From Streptomyces cavernae (GTDB lineage Bacteria > Actinomycetota > Actinomycetes > Streptomycetales > Streptomycetaceae): a stretch of DNA of 64,000 nt. Numbering within the stretch: the first letter of the stretch is position 1; the number at the start of each line of letters is the position of its first letter. The notes beneath the pieces are model-generated. The model saw only the letters and a program-made list of their open reading frames with translations, had not been told where the DNA came from and did not search any database. Made by a program: the position numbers and the translations under genes. Shown here in pieces: positions 6,990-20,419 of this stretch. Location: contig NZ_ML137711.1 in the NCBI RefSeq assembly GCF_004023625.1, forward strand, positions 147,207 through 211,206, in the 5' to 3' direction.

Positions 6990-9900
6990 ATGATGCGAGC
7001 CGACCAGCCAACGGCCCACACCTCCGACCCTGACGACGCGCTCGTGAAAGATTCCCGAGAGCGCGCCGTCCGTTCACTGCTGCGCACACCTCAGTTGAAG
7101 CGGTTGTGGAGCGCGCAGCTCGTCGGCGGCGTCGCGGACGTCCTCGGCGTGCTCGTCCTGGTCGTCCTCGCGCTCCAGGCGGCGATCGCCGAGGGGTCGT
7201 TCGGGGGCGGCTACCGCGGCGCGGCACTCGCCGTGGCGGCGGTGTTCGCGGTGCGCGCGCTGGCGACACTCCTCTTCGGAGCTGTCCTGCTCGGCCCGCT
7301 CACCTCGCTGACCTCGAAGGACGGGCCCCTCGACCGACGCTGGACCATGGTCGGCGCGGACGGACTGCGCGTCGTGCTGCTGATCATCGCCCCCCTGTGG
7401 ATCGACTGGATTCCGGCCAACGCACTCGCCGTCCTCCTGGTCACTGCCTTCGTGACCGGTGTCGCCGAGCGGCTGTGGACGGTGTGCCGGGAGAGCGCGG
7501 CGCCCGCGTTGCTGCCCGCGCCGCCCCTGGAGGGTGCGGCGGTCCGCCCGCTGCCGGACCATCTGGACGCGCTGCGCCGGCTGTCGCTGCGCACGGGGTT
7601 CGTCGCCGTCCCGCTCGCCGCCGCGACGCTGGTCGTGGCCTCGCTCGTCAACAATCTGCTGGGCGCCGGACTCGACTGGTTCGGCACACACCAGGCGGCG
7701 CTCGCCTCGTACGTGGCCGCCGGCCTGTTCGCGGCGTCGCTGTCCGTGCTGATCTTCCTCGAACTGCCCGACACCCGCACGCCCCGCGCGCGGTCGCCCC
7801 TGGAAGGACTGCGCCGGCCCAGGTCCGGCAACGGCGCCGACAAGGGGCGCACGGGCGCGCTGACACCGCTGGTACTCGCCTGCGCCGCCGTGGCCGGAGC
7901 GGTTGCCGTCGCCGTCTCCGTCTCCGTCCTGCACGCCAAGGACCTCGACGGCGGGCCGGTCCTCTACGGGCTGCTCGTCCTCACGCTGACCGGCGGAACG
8001 GTCATCGGCATCAGGACGGCGCCGCGGCTGCTGCCCGCGTTCTCCCGACGGCGTCTGCTCGCCCTGGCCATCGCCTGCACGGGGATAGCGCTGCTCGCGG
8101 CCGGGCTCGTCCCGGACGTCACCACCGTGCTGCTGATCGAGGCGTTCGCGGGCTTCTGCGCGGGCGTCGCCGCGAACACCGGGCACACGCTCCTCGACCA
8201 GGAGACCGAGGAACAGCGCCGGGCACGCGTCACCGAGCACCTGCACGCGGTCGTGCGGGTCTTCCTGGCGCTGGGTGCGCTGCTGGGCCCCTGCGTGGCC
8301 GCGCTGATCGGACCGCACCGCCTGGAGAACGGCAAGTTCGTGTTCGCGCACGGCGGCGCCGCCTTCACCCTCATGCTGGTGGGCGCGCTGCTGCTGCCGG
8401 TCGCGGCGCTGGTCCTGGCGAAGGCGGACGACCGCTCCGGAGTCCCGCTGCGGCAGGACCTGCGGGATGCGCTGCGCGGCGGCGACGACCCGGCGCAGGC
8501 ACCCGCCGCCACCGGCTTCTTCATCGCCCTGGAAGGCGGCGACGGGGCCGGCAAGTCGACGCAGGCGGAGGCCCTCGCCGAGTGGATCCGGGCCAAGGGT
8601 CACGAGGTCGTGCTGACCCGGGAGCCCGGGGCGACCCCGGTCGGCAAGCGGCTGCGGTCGATCCTGCTGGACGTCTCCTCGGCCGGGCTCTCGCACCGGG
8701 CGGAGGCGCTGCTGTACGCCGCCGACCGCGCGGAACACGTCGACACGGTGGTACGGCCCGCGCTCGAGCGGGGCGCGGTCGTCATCTCCGACCGGTACAT
8801 CGACTCGTCCGTCGCCTATCAGGGGGCCGGGCGGGACCTGTCCCCGACCGAGATCGCGCGGATCTCCCGGTGGGCCACCGCCGGGCTCGTACCGCATCTG
8901 ACGGTTCTGCTGGACGTGTCACCGGAAACCGCCCGGGAGCGGTTCACGGAGGCCCCGGACCGGCTGGAGTCCGAACCCGCGGAGTTCCACACGCGCGTGC
9001 GGTCCGGTTTCCTCACCCTCGCCGCGGCCGACCCGGGCCGCTACCTCGTCGTCGACGCAGGCCAGGAGGCCGAGGCCGTCACCACGGTGATCCGGCACCG
9101 GCTCGACATGATGCTGCCGCTCTCCGAGGCCGAGGTGAAGGCCCAGGAGGAGGCCCGGCGCAAGGCCGAGGAAGAGGCGCGCCGCAGGGCCGAGGAAGAG
9201 GCCGCGCGCAAGGCCGAGGAGGAGCGGCTGGAGCGCGAGCGCCAGGAACAGCTCGCCCGGCTGCGGGCCGAGGAGGAGGAACGCAAGCGGCGCGAGCTGG
9301 AGGAGGCCCAGCGGCGCGAGGCAGAGCGGCAGGCGGAGGAGGCCCGGCGGCGTGCCGAGGAGGCCCGCCGCCTGGCCGAGGAGGAGCGGGCGCGGCGTCT
9401 CGCCGAGGAGCAGGCCGCCGCCGCCGAGGCGGAACGGCGGCGCAAGCAGGCCGAGGAGGAGGCCCGGCTGCGGGCCGAGGCCGAGGCACGCCGCATGGAG
9501 AAGCAGCGCAAGGCGGAGGAGGCCCTGCTGCGGGCCGAGCAGGCGCGCGTGGCAGCGGCCGCGGCAGCGGCGGCCGAGGTCTCGTCGGCGGCCGAGGCCG
9601 TCGGTTCCGGTGCCGAGGCCGGTGGTTCCAGTGCTGCCGCCACGGACCAGCAGGTCACCGAGGAGACGACGGTGTTGCGGCCGGTCACCGAGGAGACGAA
9701 GGTGCTGCGGCCGGTGCGGCACCCGGAGCCCGGTCCGGCGCCGGCGGCGGGCCCTGAGCCGGCCGTTGGCACCGAGCCTGCGTCGGGCCCCGAGCCGGCC
9801 TCGGGCCCCGACGCGGAGGAGACGGCCGTGCTGCCGCAGCCACCGCATGGAGCCGCGGACGAGACGGCCGTGCTGCCTCCCGTGCCCGCCGACAACTCCG

Positions 9901-10211
9901 CGGACGAGACTGCGCTGCTGCCCCCCGTGCCGGCCGACAACTCCGCCGATGAGACCGCAGTGCTGCCCCCCGTACGGGACGATCGCGTGCCCCCGGGATA
10001 CTTCCGCGACGAGCGGCCCGGAGCCGAGGACCGGACCCGGCCGCTTCCGCAGGTCGACGAGGAAGGCCGACCGCGTCGCCGCTCCCGCTCGGACTGGGCG
10101 GAGGAGACACCGCTGGACGACCTGCCGACGCTGGCCGACGAACTGCTCGGACCGCACCAGGACGACGAGCGGGACGACCGCAACGGCCGGCGGGGACGCC
10201 GCGGGCGCTGA
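6990..10211 (+). CDS. tmk: Membrane-transporter-like domain fused to thymidylate kinase with coiled-coil tail
   Basis: This encodes 1073 residues in four parts. Residues about 40-495 form an MFS-like bundle of some 12 hydrophobic helices. Residues about 508-710 are a thymidylate kinase with P-loop GGDGAGKST, the DRYIDSSVAYQGAGRDL signature and the Arg-rich lid, which makes dTDP from dTMP. Residues about 710-865 are an almost uninterrupted Glu/Arg/Ala heptad segment, predicted as a long coiled coil. The end has repeats of ETTVLRP and ADETAVLPP followed by an acidic/basic tail. From memory, streptomycetes carry their Tmk in this membrane-linked form. The motifs look intact, so it is probably the working kinase. 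ATG 6990 and 6993 are both possible. Confidence 0.9.
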   Translation: MMRADQPTAHTSDPDDALVKDSRERAVRSLLRTPQLKRLWSAQLVGGVADVLGVLVLVVLALQAAIAEGSFGGGYRGAALAVAAVFAVRALATLLFGAVLLGPLTSLTSKDGPLDRRWTMVGADGLRVVLLIIAPLWIDWIPANALAVLLVTAFVTGVAERLWTVCRESAAPALLPAPPLEGAAVRPLPDHLDALRRLSLRTGFVAVPLAAATLVVASLVNNLLGAGLDWFGTHQAALASYVAAGLFAASLSVLIFLELPDTRTPRARSPLEGLRRPRSGNGADKGRTGALTPLVLACAAVAGAVAVAVSVSVLHAKDLDGGPVLYGLLVLTLTGGTVIGIRTAPRLLPAFSRRRLLALAIACTGIALLAAGLVPDVTTVLLIEAFAGFCAGVAANTGHTLLDQETEEQRRARVTEHLHAVVRVFLALGALLGPCVAALIGPHRLENGKFVFAHGGAAFTLMLVGALLLPVAALVLAKADDRSGVPLRQDLRDALRGGDDPAQAPAATGFFIALEGGDGAGKSTQAEALAEWIRAKGHEVVLTREPGATPVGKRLRSILLDVSSAGLSHRAEALLYAADRAEHVDTVVRPALERGAVVISDRYIDSSVAYQGAGRDLSPTEIARISRWATAGLVPHLTVLLDVSPETARERFTEAPDRLESEPAEFHTRVRSGFLTLAAADPGRYLVVDAGQEAEAVTTVIRHRLDMMLPLSEAEVKAQEEARRKAEEEARRRAEEEAARKAEEERLERERQEQLARLRAEEEERKRRELEEAQRREAERQAEEARRRAEEARRLAEEERARRLAEEQAAAAEAERRRKQAEEEARLRAEAEARRMEKQRKAEEALLRAEQARVAAAAAAAAEVSSAAEAVGSGAEAGGSSAAATDQQVTEETTVLRPVTEETKVLRPVRHPEPGPAPAAGPEPAVGTEPASGPEPASGPDAEETAVLPQPPHGAADETAVLPPVPADNSADETALLPPVPADNSADETAVLPPVRDDRVPPGYFRDERPGAEDRTRPLPQVDEEGRPRRRSRSDWAEETPLDDLPTLADELLGPHQDDERDDRNGRRGRRGR

Positions 10212-10532
10212 GTCCTCGGCGGACCGTGAGTCTTCCGCGGGCTGAGCCATGGGCGGGCGAATGAGTCGTGCGCGGGCGCTGAGTCTTCCGGGGCGGTGAG
10301 TCCTCCGAGCGGTGAGGCGGCCCGCAGACGCGGAGTCCGTGGAGCCGGTGTAGTTGCGAGTCCGTGGAGTCCGTGGAGTCCGTGGAGTCCATTGAGTCCC
10401 ACGAGTCATGGAGTCCGTGCAGCCATGGAGTCCATTGAGTCAGTGGTCGGTGGAGTCCGTGGCCCCGGCTGTCAGTGCCCTCCCGCACAATGGGACCCGA
10501 CGAGTCGGTGTGCGACAGAAGGGCGGCACTCC
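10212..10532. repeat. Intergenic stretch with GGAGTCCGT tandem repeats
   Basis: About 10331-10462 consists of imperfect copies of a 9-10 bp unit GGAGTCCGTG with variants GGAGTCCATT. A GAGTCTTCCG-type repeat precedes it. No gene is supported. Confidence 0.6.
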
Positions 10533-11738
10533 ATGCCCGTGTGGGACGACCTGGTGGGCCAGGAGAAGGTCAGCGCCCAACTCGACGCCGCCGCCCGGGA
10601 CGCCGACGCTCTGGTGACGGCCGTCGGCACGGACGCCCCGCTGCCCGATGCGTCCAAGATGACGCACGCCTGGCTCTTCACCGGCCCGCCCGGCTCGGGC
10701 CGCTCCACGGCCGCCCGCGCCTTCGCCGCCGCCCTCCAGTGCGTCAGCCCCGACCGCGCGCTCGGCGGAGCCCCCGGCTGCGGGTTCTGCGACGGCTGTC
10801 ACACCAGCCTGGTCGGCACCCACGCCGATGTGGAGATCGTCCGCACGGACCTGCTGTCGATCGGCGTCAAGGAGACCCGCGAGCTGGTGCGCCGGGCCCA
10901 GCTGTCACCGGCCGGCGGACGCTGGCAGGTCATCGTCCTCGAGGACGCCGACCGGCTCACCGAGGGCGCGGGCAACGTCCTGCTGAAGGCAGTCGAGGAG
11001 CCCGCTCCGCGTACGGTGTGGCTGCTGTGCGCGCCCTCGCTGGAGGACGTGCTGCCCACCATCCGCTCCCGCTGCCGCCACCTCACCCTGCGCACTCCGC
11101 CGGTGGACGCGGTCGCGGACGTCCTCGTCCGGCGCGACGGCATCGAGCCGGACGTGGCCGCCGCGGCGGCCCGCGCCACGCAGGGGCACATCGGTCGTGC
11201 CCGCCGCCTGGCCACGGACCAGCGCGCCCGGGAGCGCCGCGCGGCCGTACTCAAGCTTCCGCTCCGCGTCGACGAGATCGGCGGTTGCCTCAAGGCCGCC
11301 CAGGAGCTGATCGACGCGGCGTCGGAAGAGGCCAAGCAGGTCGCCGAGGAGATTGACGTCAAGGAGACGGAGGAGCTGAAGGCGGCGCTCGGCGCGGCGC
11401 AGGGCGGGCGCATGCCACGTGGCACCGCGGGGGTGATGAAGGAGTTGGAGGACAAGCAGAAGCGCCGCCGGACACGTACGCAGCGCGACAGCCTCGACCT
11501 GGCCCTCATCGACCTCACCGCCTTCTACCGCGACGTCCTCGCCCTCCAGTTCGGCTCGCAGGTCGCCATCGCCAACACGGAGGCGCGGGACGTGCTGGAA
11601 CGGCTGGCCCGGGGATCGGCGCCGGAGGCCACGCTCCGCCGTATCGAGGCCATCTCGGCGTGCCGAGAGGCCCTGGACCGCAACGTGGCGCCGTTGCTGG
11701 CGGTGGAGGCCATGGCAGTGGCCCTGCGGGAGGGGTGA
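10533..11738 (+). CDS. holB: DNA polymerase III delta' subunit
   Basis: This encodes 401 residues of the AAA+ clamp-loader family. The Walker A position reads GPPGSGRST (about 50-58), with Arg where ATP-hydrolysing subunits have Lys, as expected for a delta' stator. A zinc-module-like CGFCDGC follows, then the SRC motif (IRSRCRHLTL). The start DDLVGQEKV is typical of the family. The C-terminal ~170 residues form the collar domain with a basic, charged insertion (KEDKQKRRRTRTQ-like). It acts with tau/gamma and delta to load the beta clamp, and it lies downstream of tmk, a pairing common in bacteria. The ATG has GGGCGGCACTCC before it. Confidence 0.9.
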   Translation: MPVWDDLVGQEKVSAQLDAAARDADALVTAVGTDAPLPDASKMTHAWLFTGPPGSGRSTAARAFAAALQCVSPDRALGGAPGCGFCDGCHTSLVGTHADVEIVRTDLLSIGVKETRELVRRAQLSPAGGRWQVIVLEDADRLTEGAGNVLLKAVEEPAPRTVWLLCAPSLEDVLPTIRSRCRHLTLRTPPVDAVADVLVRRDGIEPDVAAAAARATQGHIGRARRLATDQRARERRAAVLKLPLRVDEIGGCLKAAQELIDAASEEAKQVAEEIDVKETEELKAALGAAQGGRMPRGTAGVMKELEDKQKRRRTRTQRDSLDLALIDLTAFYRDVLALQFGSQVAIANTEARDVLERLARGSAPEATLRRIEAISACREALDRNVAPLLAVEAMAVALREG

Positions 11739-11867
11739 GCCGGCAGGGGCGGGCCGGTCGGGTCAGGCCGGCTCAGGTCGGTCACCGCTGGTCCCGCCCT
11801 GTCACTCGTACGAGCCAGATCGGCGACCCTGAGCAATGCAGTGATCGCTTACGGTTACGCTCGCCCA

Positions 11868-13870: not shown

Positions 13871-16465
<2,595 letters not shown>

Positions 16466-18025
16466 TCAAGCCCAGGCCCTGCGTACGACGAAGGAAGCCT
16501 GGCCGGCGAAGGCCCTCGTGCCGTCGGAGCCGTCCAGCCAGATGCCACCGTCGCGGTGGCGGATGACCGATCCGGGATAGTTGTGCGCGTGCAGGGTCAC
16601 CGACCCGGCGACCGCCCCGGTGCGCGGACAGAAGGTGGCGTCTTCGCGGAAAAGTTCGCTGCCGTCGTTGGTGCTCAGCCGTAGCCGCAGGTAACTATGG
16701 CGCAGATAGCGGCCGTCGGCGGCGCGGAAGGTGACGCACCGTGTATCGGCCAGCCCCCGGACAACCGTGAAGGTGACCCGCTGCCGCGTCTGCGCGCTGC
16801 TGGACGCGGAGACCCGGCCGAGCGTCGCGAAGCCGCCGGCATACGTGAGGTACAGGCCGGGCTCGTCCACGGACTCCAGCGACTGTGCGCCCAGCGGAAC
16901 CATGCCCGCGACGGCGGACGGACTCACCGGGGACGGTCCGGCCGACGTGGTGGAGCGCGACGGGGCCGGCGTGGGACTGCCGACCGTGGGAGCGGCGGTG
17001 ACGCCGGGCACCCGATGCGCCGGTTCGGGCCAGGTCGCGTAGGTGGCGGTCCCGGCGATGACCACCGCGCCGGTGGTGAGACCCACCAGCGGATGAGCGG
17101 TCACCGCGTAGAGTTTGCCGATCAGCGAGCTGTGCAGACCGCCTGCTCCCGACGACGCCGCCGCCGTGCCGACGGCGACCTGTGCCGTGGCCAGCCCGGC
17201 GGCGCTCGCGGCCGTACCCGACAGCAGGCCCTTGGCGGCCAGCGCGGCGAGGAGCCCGGCCGGGACGGCCAGCGGCGCGAGGCTGAGGAGCAGTAGTTCG
17301 GCCGGAACCCGTTCTGTGGTCCTCGCCATGCAGACCGGGCAGCCGCGGGTGTGCCGCGCGATCCGCTTGCGCCACACCGAGGTGCGAAGACCGTCCCAGC
17401 CGACGACGGTCTCGTCCAACTGCGGACAGCGCGGGTCGGCCTCCAGCGCGGCGACGATCGTCCGGCTCAGTTCCAGCTGTTCGCGCATGCGTTGCAGGCT
17501 CACTCCGACGTGGGCGACCGTGAGCCCCGTCGCGGCGGCGATGTCGTCACGGCTCAGCGAGCCGGCGCGTTCCTGCCACCACAGCGACAGCAGCACCCGA
17601 TGGTCCGGGTCGAGCCACCGGCCGGCTTCGACAACCTGACGGCGCTCGTCCGAAGCATGCAGACGCAGGATCGCCATGTCCTCAGGTTTGGCGTCGGCGT
17701 CCGGTATGTGGTGTGCGTCGTCGATGACCGTGGTCCGGCCGGCGAAGGCGCGTTGCCGGTGCCAGTGGGTACTGATCTGGCGGAGCGTGATCGACACCAG
17801 CCAGGACCGGAAGCTCTCCGGGGCACGCAGGGCAGGCAGGTCGCGCACCACGCGCAGCAGGGTTTCCTGGACGACGTCGTCGACGTCGGCATGTCCGCTC
17901 AGGCTTCGCCCGACGATGTTGTAGAGCAACGGCAGGTACGCGGCGATCAGCTCCTCGCGCGCCCGATCGTCACCGGCCTGCGCCGCGACCACGAGCCGCG
18001 CGTGGTCCGCATCCGTGAGCCTCAT
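16466..18025 (-). CDS. Membrane-tethered ECF sigma factor with extracytoplasmic AbfB domain
   Basis: This encodes 519 residues. Residues about 24-90 fit sigma region 2 (DVDDVVQETLLRVVRDL, ESFRSWLVSITLRQ). Residues about 130-190 fit region 4 (LSRDDIAAATGLTVAHVGVS). Next is RIARHTRGCPVC (His225, Cys229, Cys232), which resembles the zinc motif of anti-sigma factors. Hydrophobic stretches follow at 243-263 and 312-331, the second a good transmembrane helix. After a Pro/Ser/Thr linker, residues about 378-519 match an AbfB (CBM42-type) arabinose-binding beta-trefoil (GLYLTYAGGF, RCVTFRAADGRYLRH, GSVIRHRDGGIWLD). The inferred job is to sense arabinofuranose-decorated polysaccharide outside and release or activate sigma inside. 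ATG 18025 follows GAGGTGGTGGGA; an upstream in-frame ATG at 18082 is less likely. Confidence 0.85.
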   Translation of the reverse strand: MRLTDADHARLVVAAQAGDDRAREELIAAYLPLLYNIVGRSLSGHADVDDVVQETLLRVVRDLPALRAPESFRSWLVSITLRQISTHWHRQRAFAGRTTVIDDAHHIPDADAKPEDMAILRLHASDERRQVVEAGRWLDPDHRVLLSLWWQERAGSLSRDDIAAATGLTVAHVGVSLQRMREQLELSRTIVAALEADPRCPQLDETVVGWDGLRTSVWRKRIARHTRGCPVCMARTTERVPAELLLLSLAPLAVPAGLLAALAAKGLLSGTAASAAGLATAQVAVGTAAASSGAGGLHSSLIGKLYAVTAHPLVGLTTGAVVIAGTATYATWPEPAHRVPGVTAAPTVGSPTPAPSRSTTSAGPSPVSPSAVAGMVPLGAQSLESVDEPGLYLTYAGGFATLGRVSASSSAQTRQRVTFTVVRGLADTRCVTFRAADGRYLRHSYLRLRLSTNDGSELFREDATFCPRTGAVAGSVTLHAHNYPGSVIRHRDGGIWLDGSDGTRAFAGQASFVVRRAWA

Positions 18026-18074: not shown

Positions 18075-18084
18075 GTTTGCAAAC
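18075..18084. promoter_or_regulatory. Palindrome GTTTGCAAAC upstream of sigma factor gene
   Basis: A perfect 10-bp palindrome sits about 50 bp before the sigma factor start. Its TTGCAA core is reminiscent of LacI-family operators that control polysaccharide genes in Streptomyces. No second copy was found in front of the GH10-GH62 gene, so a regulatory role is only suggested. Confidence 0.35.

Positions 18085-18248: not shown

Positions 18249-20419
<2,171 letters not shown>

Follow-up and report, generated by a model that had tools for sequence, protein, structure and literature searches.

The locus described here, in a window of 64,000 nucleotides of Streptomyces cavernae (the window being the whole stretch of DNA that was analysed), raises the question of what a sigma factor and a sugar-binding domain, found in one and the same polypeptide, would report to the neighbouring gene of a secreted GH10-GH62 enzyme. 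The answer that we regard as fairly probable is that an ECF sigma factor, a zinc-finger anti-sigma-like motif and an AbfB domain outside the cell are joined through one helix, and that this protein would directly switch on GH10-GH62. That the fused sigma factor senses plant hemicellulose outside the cell is likely, judging from the sequence, because of its set of domains and because a promoter-like element recurs beside dozens of its relatives.

The general design, i.e. ECF sigma factor, anti-sigma part, membrane helix and outside sensor, has already been described for groups ECF52 and ECF53 (PMC8999054, PMC5826349, PMC10766802). Some of their members are predicted to carry glycosyl hydrolase or carbohydrate-binding domains (PMC8999054, PMC10766802), WP_030276194.1 being an example of the ECF53 group (PMC8999054), and experimental validation of members with sugar or hydrolase domains is described as yet to come (PMC10766802). 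The parts of these papers drawn on describe neither an AbfB form nor a promoter of this kind; the shared promoter and the swappable sensors, both of them likely, are the part that a specialist would not expect. No paper on an AbfB-form ECF sigma factor or on the element motif was found in the open-licence literature.

The preliminary description of the locus had proposed sigma regions 2 and 4, an H-x3-C-x2-C motif, a Pro/Ser linker and an AbfB domain within a single chain of 519 residues, and all of these are recovered (table 1), with residue numbers that agree with the domain positions to within a few residues. The start codon adopted falls within a block conserved among relatives, an alternative open start being the TTG at 18082. 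The sigma part, with sigma-2 and sigma-4 but neither sigma-1 nor sigma-3, matches the sigma70-ECF model of NCBIfam (TIGR02937, E 9.8e-19, 67.6 bits against a cut-off of 42.9) and, above the Pfam cut-off, Sigma70_r2 (E 3.4e-14). Region 4 of the window protein is without a Pfam sigma match; when the threshold was set lax, Sigma70_r4_2 came up in 5 of the 48 relatives. The AbfB domain is recognised by Pfam with E 5.5e-41. The fused architecture is not a chance product, because the best 120 of the 3118 proteins that match the window protein at E <=1e-10 all share the pair of Sigma70_r2 and AbfB, at 79-92 percent identity. As for the surroundings, the sigma stop codon is followed, a few bases on, by a 9-bp tandem repeat (16395-16460; 7.3 copies of AGCTCAAGC, 98 percent matches), and upstream of the sigma gene, at 18249-20243 of the minus strand, a 664-residue protein is encoded that has ALF repeats and is very rich in Ala in its middle part.

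Table 1. Features of the fused sigma gene and its neighbourhood (positions in the window; residue numbers of the 519-residue protein in brackets).
Feature	Position	Strand	Basis
GH10-GH62 secreted enzyme, ATG 15979, likely target	13871..15979	minus	Pfam GH10 E 5.7e-119, GH62 E 4e-72
51-residue upstream ORF (MTRHTHEPR...), possible leader	15976..16131	minus	surrounding bases conserved
Candidate promoter, TTTTCTGTTAC (16265-16255) and CCTCC (16235-16231), toward GH10-GH62	16231..16265	minus	conserved, enriched
Fused ECF sigma gene, 519 residues, ATG 18025, stop 16466	16466..18025	minus	Pfam, NCBIfam, protein matches
Sigma-2 to sigma-4 (22-185; Sigma70_r2 26-92)	17471..17962	minus	NCBIfam and Pfam
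ZAS-like motif C200-x24-H225-x3-C229-x2-C232	17330..17428	minus	invariant in relatives
Hydrophobic stretch H1 (244-264), two prolines	17234..17296	minus	hydrophobicity scores
Predicted single membrane helix H2 (312-332)	17030..17092	minus	hydrophobicity, charge of relatives
Pro/Ser/Thr-rich linker (333-377)	16895..17029	minus	sequence; 333-373 with pLDDT under 50
AbfB/CBM42 beta-trefoil sensor (382-514)	16484..16882	minus	Pfam; beta pocket H443 and D462

The cysteine- and histidine-containing motif reads HTRGCPVC (H225-x3-C229-x2-C232), with C200 standing 25 residues ahead of the His. All 48 aligned relatives have C200, H225, C229 and C232 unchanged, and the same holds for W210 and W218-R-K-R221; the four ligand positions are also kept in 61 of 61 AbfB-type rows, a set that overlaps the former. 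An H-x3-C-x2-C motif with a further ligand some 25 residues before the His is what we take to be the ligand spacing of ZAS anti-sigma domains (the RsrA and ChrR pattern). Because the spacing fits this pattern, it is likely, on the strength of these residues, that the protein carries its own anti-sigma domain directly behind sigma-4. The zf-HC2 family was matched neither by the window protein nor, at Pfam E <=0.5, among the families listed (25 of 35) for the 48 rows.

At the other end of the chain, the match to PF05270, above the Pfam cut-off, is accompanied by a beta-trefoil fold, as in AbfB/CBM42 domains. The 50 matches listed in a structure search (VIA) are AbfB or beta-trefoil, which says nothing on the sigma-ZAS part, and the fold of the sensor is close to that of the CBM42 domains of AkAbfB and of Clostridium thermocellum RsgI5, an anti-sigma factor. 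The His and Asp of an arabinofuranose-binding beta pocket are present (H443 and D462 in the window protein; 46 of 46), with the same 19-residue spacing as H70 and D89 of AtAbf43C, a pair that contacts arabinose (PMC12493170). The third beta-pocket contact of AtAbf43C (a Tyr at His+3) is absent by spacing, and the gamma-pocket Asp is replaced by a residue read as Gln509. The domain is, from its sequence, likely to be of the arabinofuranose-binding type.

The locus has many relatives: at least 448 places were confirmed, the best 80 were kept, and the comparison covered 83 loci once the window and a pair of paralogues from its own genome had been added. Orthologues occur, for example, in S. exfoliatus and S. 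anulatus. The sensor is AbfB in 47 of them (including L034, which is frameshifted), CAP in 18, a glycosyl hydrolase core in three and Lcl_C in one; two have a domain that was not recognised, and in 12 the chain stops shortly behind H1. The outer domain of the former two (L082, 8128-9867; L065, 2523-4199), without a Pfam match at E 0.001, is an unrecognised sensor type. The 12 sigma factors of the truncated clade (L042-L048, L050, L053, L054, L056 and L063) keep the zinc motif, are without H2 or sensor, lie mostly near RICIN-domain genes and are candidates for soluble or decaying versions. Some match to the fused sigma factor occurs in 59 of 61 genomes searched, the full-length AbfB form in at least seven besides its own (G004, G007, G015, G017, G035, G036 and G045) and, among the matches listed, the sigma head only in many others.

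Whether the AbfB domain lies outside the cell is ambiguous from the window protein alone, because H1 (-0.52 on an insertion-energy scale for which we assumed the coefficients) outscores H2 (+1.63) and two spans would put AbfB inside. H1 and H2 might form a membrane hairpin, in which case a cytoplasmic AbfB domain would sense imported arabino-oligosaccharides or the protein would be regulated otherwise. H1 indeed scores better than H2 in 55 of the 70 full-length rows, and for ECF48/52/53 the number of transmembrane helices is given as one to two (PMC8999054), but H1 of the window protein contains two prolines, and H1 is weak (+2.0 to +3.1) and H2 the stronger stretch in L037, L038, L061, L064, L077 and L080; a stretch scoring +2.32 or better is present at the H2 position in 70 of 70 full-length rows. 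The hairpin is further opposed by the basic residues directly before H2 in the CAP relatives (18 rows), where the 20 residues ahead of it hold 6-10 K/R, with means of 8.6 before and 1.7 after H2 (D/E 0.8 and 4.4, respectively). According to the positive-inside rule, basic residues mark the cytoplasmic flank of a span, and K/R likewise fall from 2.6 to 0.7 across H2 in the AbfB types outside the window's clade (14 rows). Within that clade (32 rows) they are even (1.00 before vs 1.16 after), and only the acidic residues lean the expected way (D/E 0 before, 1.56 after). The exchanged sensors also speak against a hairpin, as AbfB, CAP and the glycosyl hydrolase core, all families usually found on secreted proteins, stand behind the Pro/Ser/Thr linker. 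AlphaFold2 models, from alignments of 48 and 61 rows, are confident for the sigma part, the zinc finger and AbfB, leave 268-373 without resolved structure, contain no helix at 312-332 (pLDDT under 50) and, at low confidence, break H1 into short helices (242-247 and 256-264); they neither support nor exclude a membrane helix. H1 may close the ZAS domain as its final helix, with no membrane span, and H2 is predicted to be the only span, with AbfB outside, a reading made mainly because of the charge pattern round H2 in the relatives. The helix placed at about 312-331 by the preliminary description is retained as the anchor mainly through these relatives, the stronger stretch at 244-264 having been omitted there. 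The higher scores of H1 in most rows and the even basic charge in the window's clade weigh slightly in favour of the hairpin, which stays quite unlikely, and slightly against the explanation with AbfB outside.

The putative target, the GH10-GH62 gene, is the downstream neighbour of the sigma gene on the same strand; its start was set from a conserved MKGLHR and looks signal-peptide-like. The possible leader ORF between them has a ribosome-site-like stretch, GAAGAAAG, and a TGA that overlaps the enzyme ATG (ATGA), and in L024, L026, L027 and L032 an MTRHT start is in frame with the enzyme. Pairing with such enzymes recurs: of the 47 AbfB-sensor loci, all but L029, L030, L036 and L038 (43 loci) have a GH10, GH62 or GH43/AbfB gene no more than 5 kb away, compared with none of 24 loci with other membrane sensors and 2 of 12 with truncated sigma factors; for some of the loci counted, the sequence extends less than 5 kb to one side. 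The difference between AbfB and other sensors has a Fisher p of 3.9e-15, a value that overstates the evidence as the rows are related, and an independent-pairs test of sensor against enzyme neighbour offered two pairs only, for which significance is impossible. The 43 of 47 AbfB loci, along with the shared promoter-like element, much strengthen the link to an arabinoxylan enzyme suggested at the outset. The arrangement varies: in Streptomyces, GH10-GH62 lies downstream of the AbfB-sigma gene, and in a second Streptomyces clade, which includes the own-genome paralogue at C2, GH43-AbfB is divergent from the sigma gene, with genes matching GH62, GH127 and GH27 queries beyond that paralogue; Actinoplanes relatives (L040, L041) have GH10-CBM2 beside the sigma gene, and in L037 a GH62 and a GH10 gene flank it, one to each side. 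A second case of a sensor resembling the neighbouring enzyme is L061, where the sensor (8328-9803) and the divergent neighbour (10001-11845) both contain a glycosyl hydrolase catalytic core (PF11790).

Between the window sigma gene and GH10-GH62 stands a paired element with the consensus YYGTTAY-N17-19-YCTCC; orthologues share TTTTCTGTTACG, followed about 20 bases on by CCTCC. The pair is also found before the divergent enzyme in L035, L058, L071 and L081 and, in 18 of 18 CAP types, 75-100 bases before the sigma gene itself. The strict form occurs at 59 sites, one each in 59 of 83 loci, and at none across five rounds of block-shuffled sequence; 58 of the sites lie no further than 1 kb from the sigma gene, and the 59th (L079) is upstream of a displaced GH43-AbfB gene. 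Among AbfB types, 38 of 41 strict sites are directed at the enzyme, the exceptions being L029 and L030, where the site is not ahead of an enzyme of these families, and L041, where it is directed away from the enzyme. In its relaxed form (GTTAY-N17-19-YCTCC) the element is 255-fold enriched, with 56 sites in 54 kb beside the sigma genes vs 6 in 1.47 Mb of flank, numbers to be read in the knowledge that the element was first seen by eye in upstream sequences, so that the pattern owes its shape to some of the very data counted. The relaxed form is missing from the counted zones of 27 of 83 loci; in L002, L034, L041 and L079 the strict form is present at other spacing or distance, and neither form is found in 23 of 83 loci, which are mainly of the truncated clade and the Micromonosporaceae and include the AbfB types L036-L040 and L077. 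The element precedes 33 of 45 enzyme genes adjoining AbfB-sigmas. It stands before none of 18 further genes for enzymes of the same families, among which are GH10(-GH62) genes next to truncated sigmas (L046, L056), although four of the 18 are not clean negatives (in L034 and L079 a strict site lies beyond the 500 bases counted, and in L014 and L019 the GH62 pieces are the second halves of split ORFs).

Searches of the whole genome and of other genomes are less dependent tests of the element. The T-run form has four sites in the 10.4 Mb of the own genome (none for a reversed-pattern control), which lie ahead of GH10-GH62 and of GH43-AbfB, beside both AbfB-sigmas, ahead of a secreted ORF that looks broken, and ahead of a PATR-like protein with a pair of GH43 genes next to it. 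In the third own paralogue a variant of the element stands at -149 before the sigma gene itself. The strict GTCTCC form has 10 sites in 41 genomes (control 0), two of them own. The remaining eight comprise four ahead of PF05426 alginate-lyase-family enzymes (L104, L106, L108 and L110), three ahead of PATR-type proteins (L105, L107 and L109; weak matches, two of the three under the Pfam cut-off) and one that lies inside an ATP synthase subunit gene and is due to chance. No fused sigma gene occurs in the 3.3-3.4 kb round the L104-L110 sites, the genes of which are possible distant regulon members.

Because the element is enriched beside the sigma family and directed at the enzyme or at the sigma gene itself, it is likely, as a reading of sequence, to be the promoter recognized by this family. 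It might instead be the operator of a separate regulator, or some other signal, with the sigma factor controlling other genes, e.g. those of development, as would suit SCO4117 (ECF52), which affects development and antibiotics and has a differing proposed motif, CSGYN-17-SRHA (PMC5826349), and as would suit the sites before alginate-lyase-family and PATR-type genes with no fused sigma gene in the stretches fetched. Such an operator is unlikely, however, given two short blocks at a near-fixed spacing of 17-19 with variable sequence between them and no evident dyad symmetry, the aim of the sites at the sigma gene itself (all 18 CAP types) or at the enzyme paired with it (38 of the 41 AbfB-type sites), the 255-fold enrichment, and a terminator scan with one candidate vs 1.1 expected. 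The same scan, with no excess over shuffles, disposed of the T-run as a terminator. Looking for dyads with exact 4-mers brought no decisive result, and TTTTCGTTA matches in the truncated clade, without CTCC and antisense in a degenerate tail, were dropped from the element.

With the element taken as a promoter, a sequence of events may be outlined. Without sugar, the fused zinc-finger domain would keep sigma-2/sigma-4 inactive at the membrane; arabinofuranose side chains bound outside would lead to cleavage in or near H2, by site-1 and then site-2 type intramembrane proteolysis, after which the zinc-finger part would be lost and the freed sigma factor could read YYGTTAY-N17-19-YCTCC ahead of GH10-GH62, which would be switched on without a separate partner protein. 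In the AbfB types no element was found directed at the sigma gene itself, so production of the AbfB sensor would be independent, with the enzyme gene as the output. The proteolytic step is proposed by analogy with IutY, a sigma factor fused to an anti-sigma factor that is activated by Prc and RseP (PMC8999054), and with RsgI factors, which are activated by self-cleavage, RseP and ClpXP (PMC12203970). The main rival for this final activation step is release of the sigma factor through a change in conformation of the fused zinc-finger domain, with no proteolysis involved. As the zinc-finger motif is covalently fused, movement about a hinge might be enough, a membrane-held sigma factor could still reach promoters, and for ECF52 Pinto and Mascher, cited in PMC5826349, proposed the one route as well as the other; against IutY and RsgI, precedents from other proteins, we consider release of this kind somewhat unlikely and keep proteolysis as the preferred step.

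How the protein compares with known systems can be seen from the closest of them. SCO4117 of Streptomyces coelicolor has the same parts, i.e. sigma factor, zinc finger, membrane region, proline-rich stretch and carbohydrate-binding domain, but it carries smart00776, lies downstream of atrA and has a differing candidate promoter element, where the window sigma factor has AbfB and lies by GH10-GH62 (PMC5826349). The window protein follows the ECF52 order of domains, its membrane region being a prediction. Unlike SCO4117, it has no smart00776 domain, which we take to be NPCBM, in the Pfam scan. No SCO4117-like NPCBM sigma factor was found in the own genome by ORF reading, which gave three NPCBM places in non-sigma ORFs and one long sigma frame with the zinc motif (L089). 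ECF53 and ECF48 resemble the window protein in a C-terminal zinc finger, one to two membrane helices and a long extension (PMC8999054). RsgI5/SigI5 of C. thermocellum has a CBM42 close in fold to the window AbfB, but consists of two proteins, with a sigma factor of the SigI type rather than ECF and a self-cleaving outside domain (PMC12203970); in the window protein sigma factor and sensor form one chain, and the Pfam scan finds no RsgI_N or self-cleaving domain. IutY of Pseudomonas putida (ECF243) is likewise an ECF sigma factor fused to a membrane anti-sigma factor and activated by proteolysis, but it responds to a siderophore (aerobactin) through cell-surface signalling, and the part of the source drawn on describes no sugar domain (PMC8999054).

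The history of the family bears on how its sensors were acquired. AbfB types are not one clade on the sigma-plus-zinc tree (AU p 8.8e-7, 21 rows vs 16), and on the AbfB tree the sigma-borne AbfB domains group together (95/93), apart from the nine enzyme domains included (selected by length out of 13 enzyme matches), which fits exchange between heads better than capture of AbfB twice from enzymes. Because the trees of sensor domains and sigma heads differ, sensors have likely been exchanged between sigma heads. More tentatively, with the balance slightly against it, the family may be a plug-in one, with a fused sigma head, interchangeable outside sensors (AbfB, CAP, glycosyl hydrolase core and others) and a single promoter, YYGTTAY-N17-19-YCTCC, in which the sensor copies the binding domain or the substrate class of the secreted enzyme that it turns on. 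If so, sensors would move between heads, and one protein would tie a cell-wall polymer to its own degrading enzyme.

Actinobacterial sensing of insoluble hemicellulose in soil is poorly known, and the literature covered, in the parts drawn on, gives neither a tested sugar nor a proven promoter for fused sigma factors of the ECF52/53 kind. The present locus, in a tractable genus, offers a sensor whose pocket is defined, a single likely target enzyme next to it and, as a specific candidate for the promoter, an element of 35 bp. If the proposed reading is true, it would be a one-gene switch, the specificity of which lies in an exchangeable outside domain, and which would parallel, apparently by convergence, the two-protein RsgI5 device of Clostridium.
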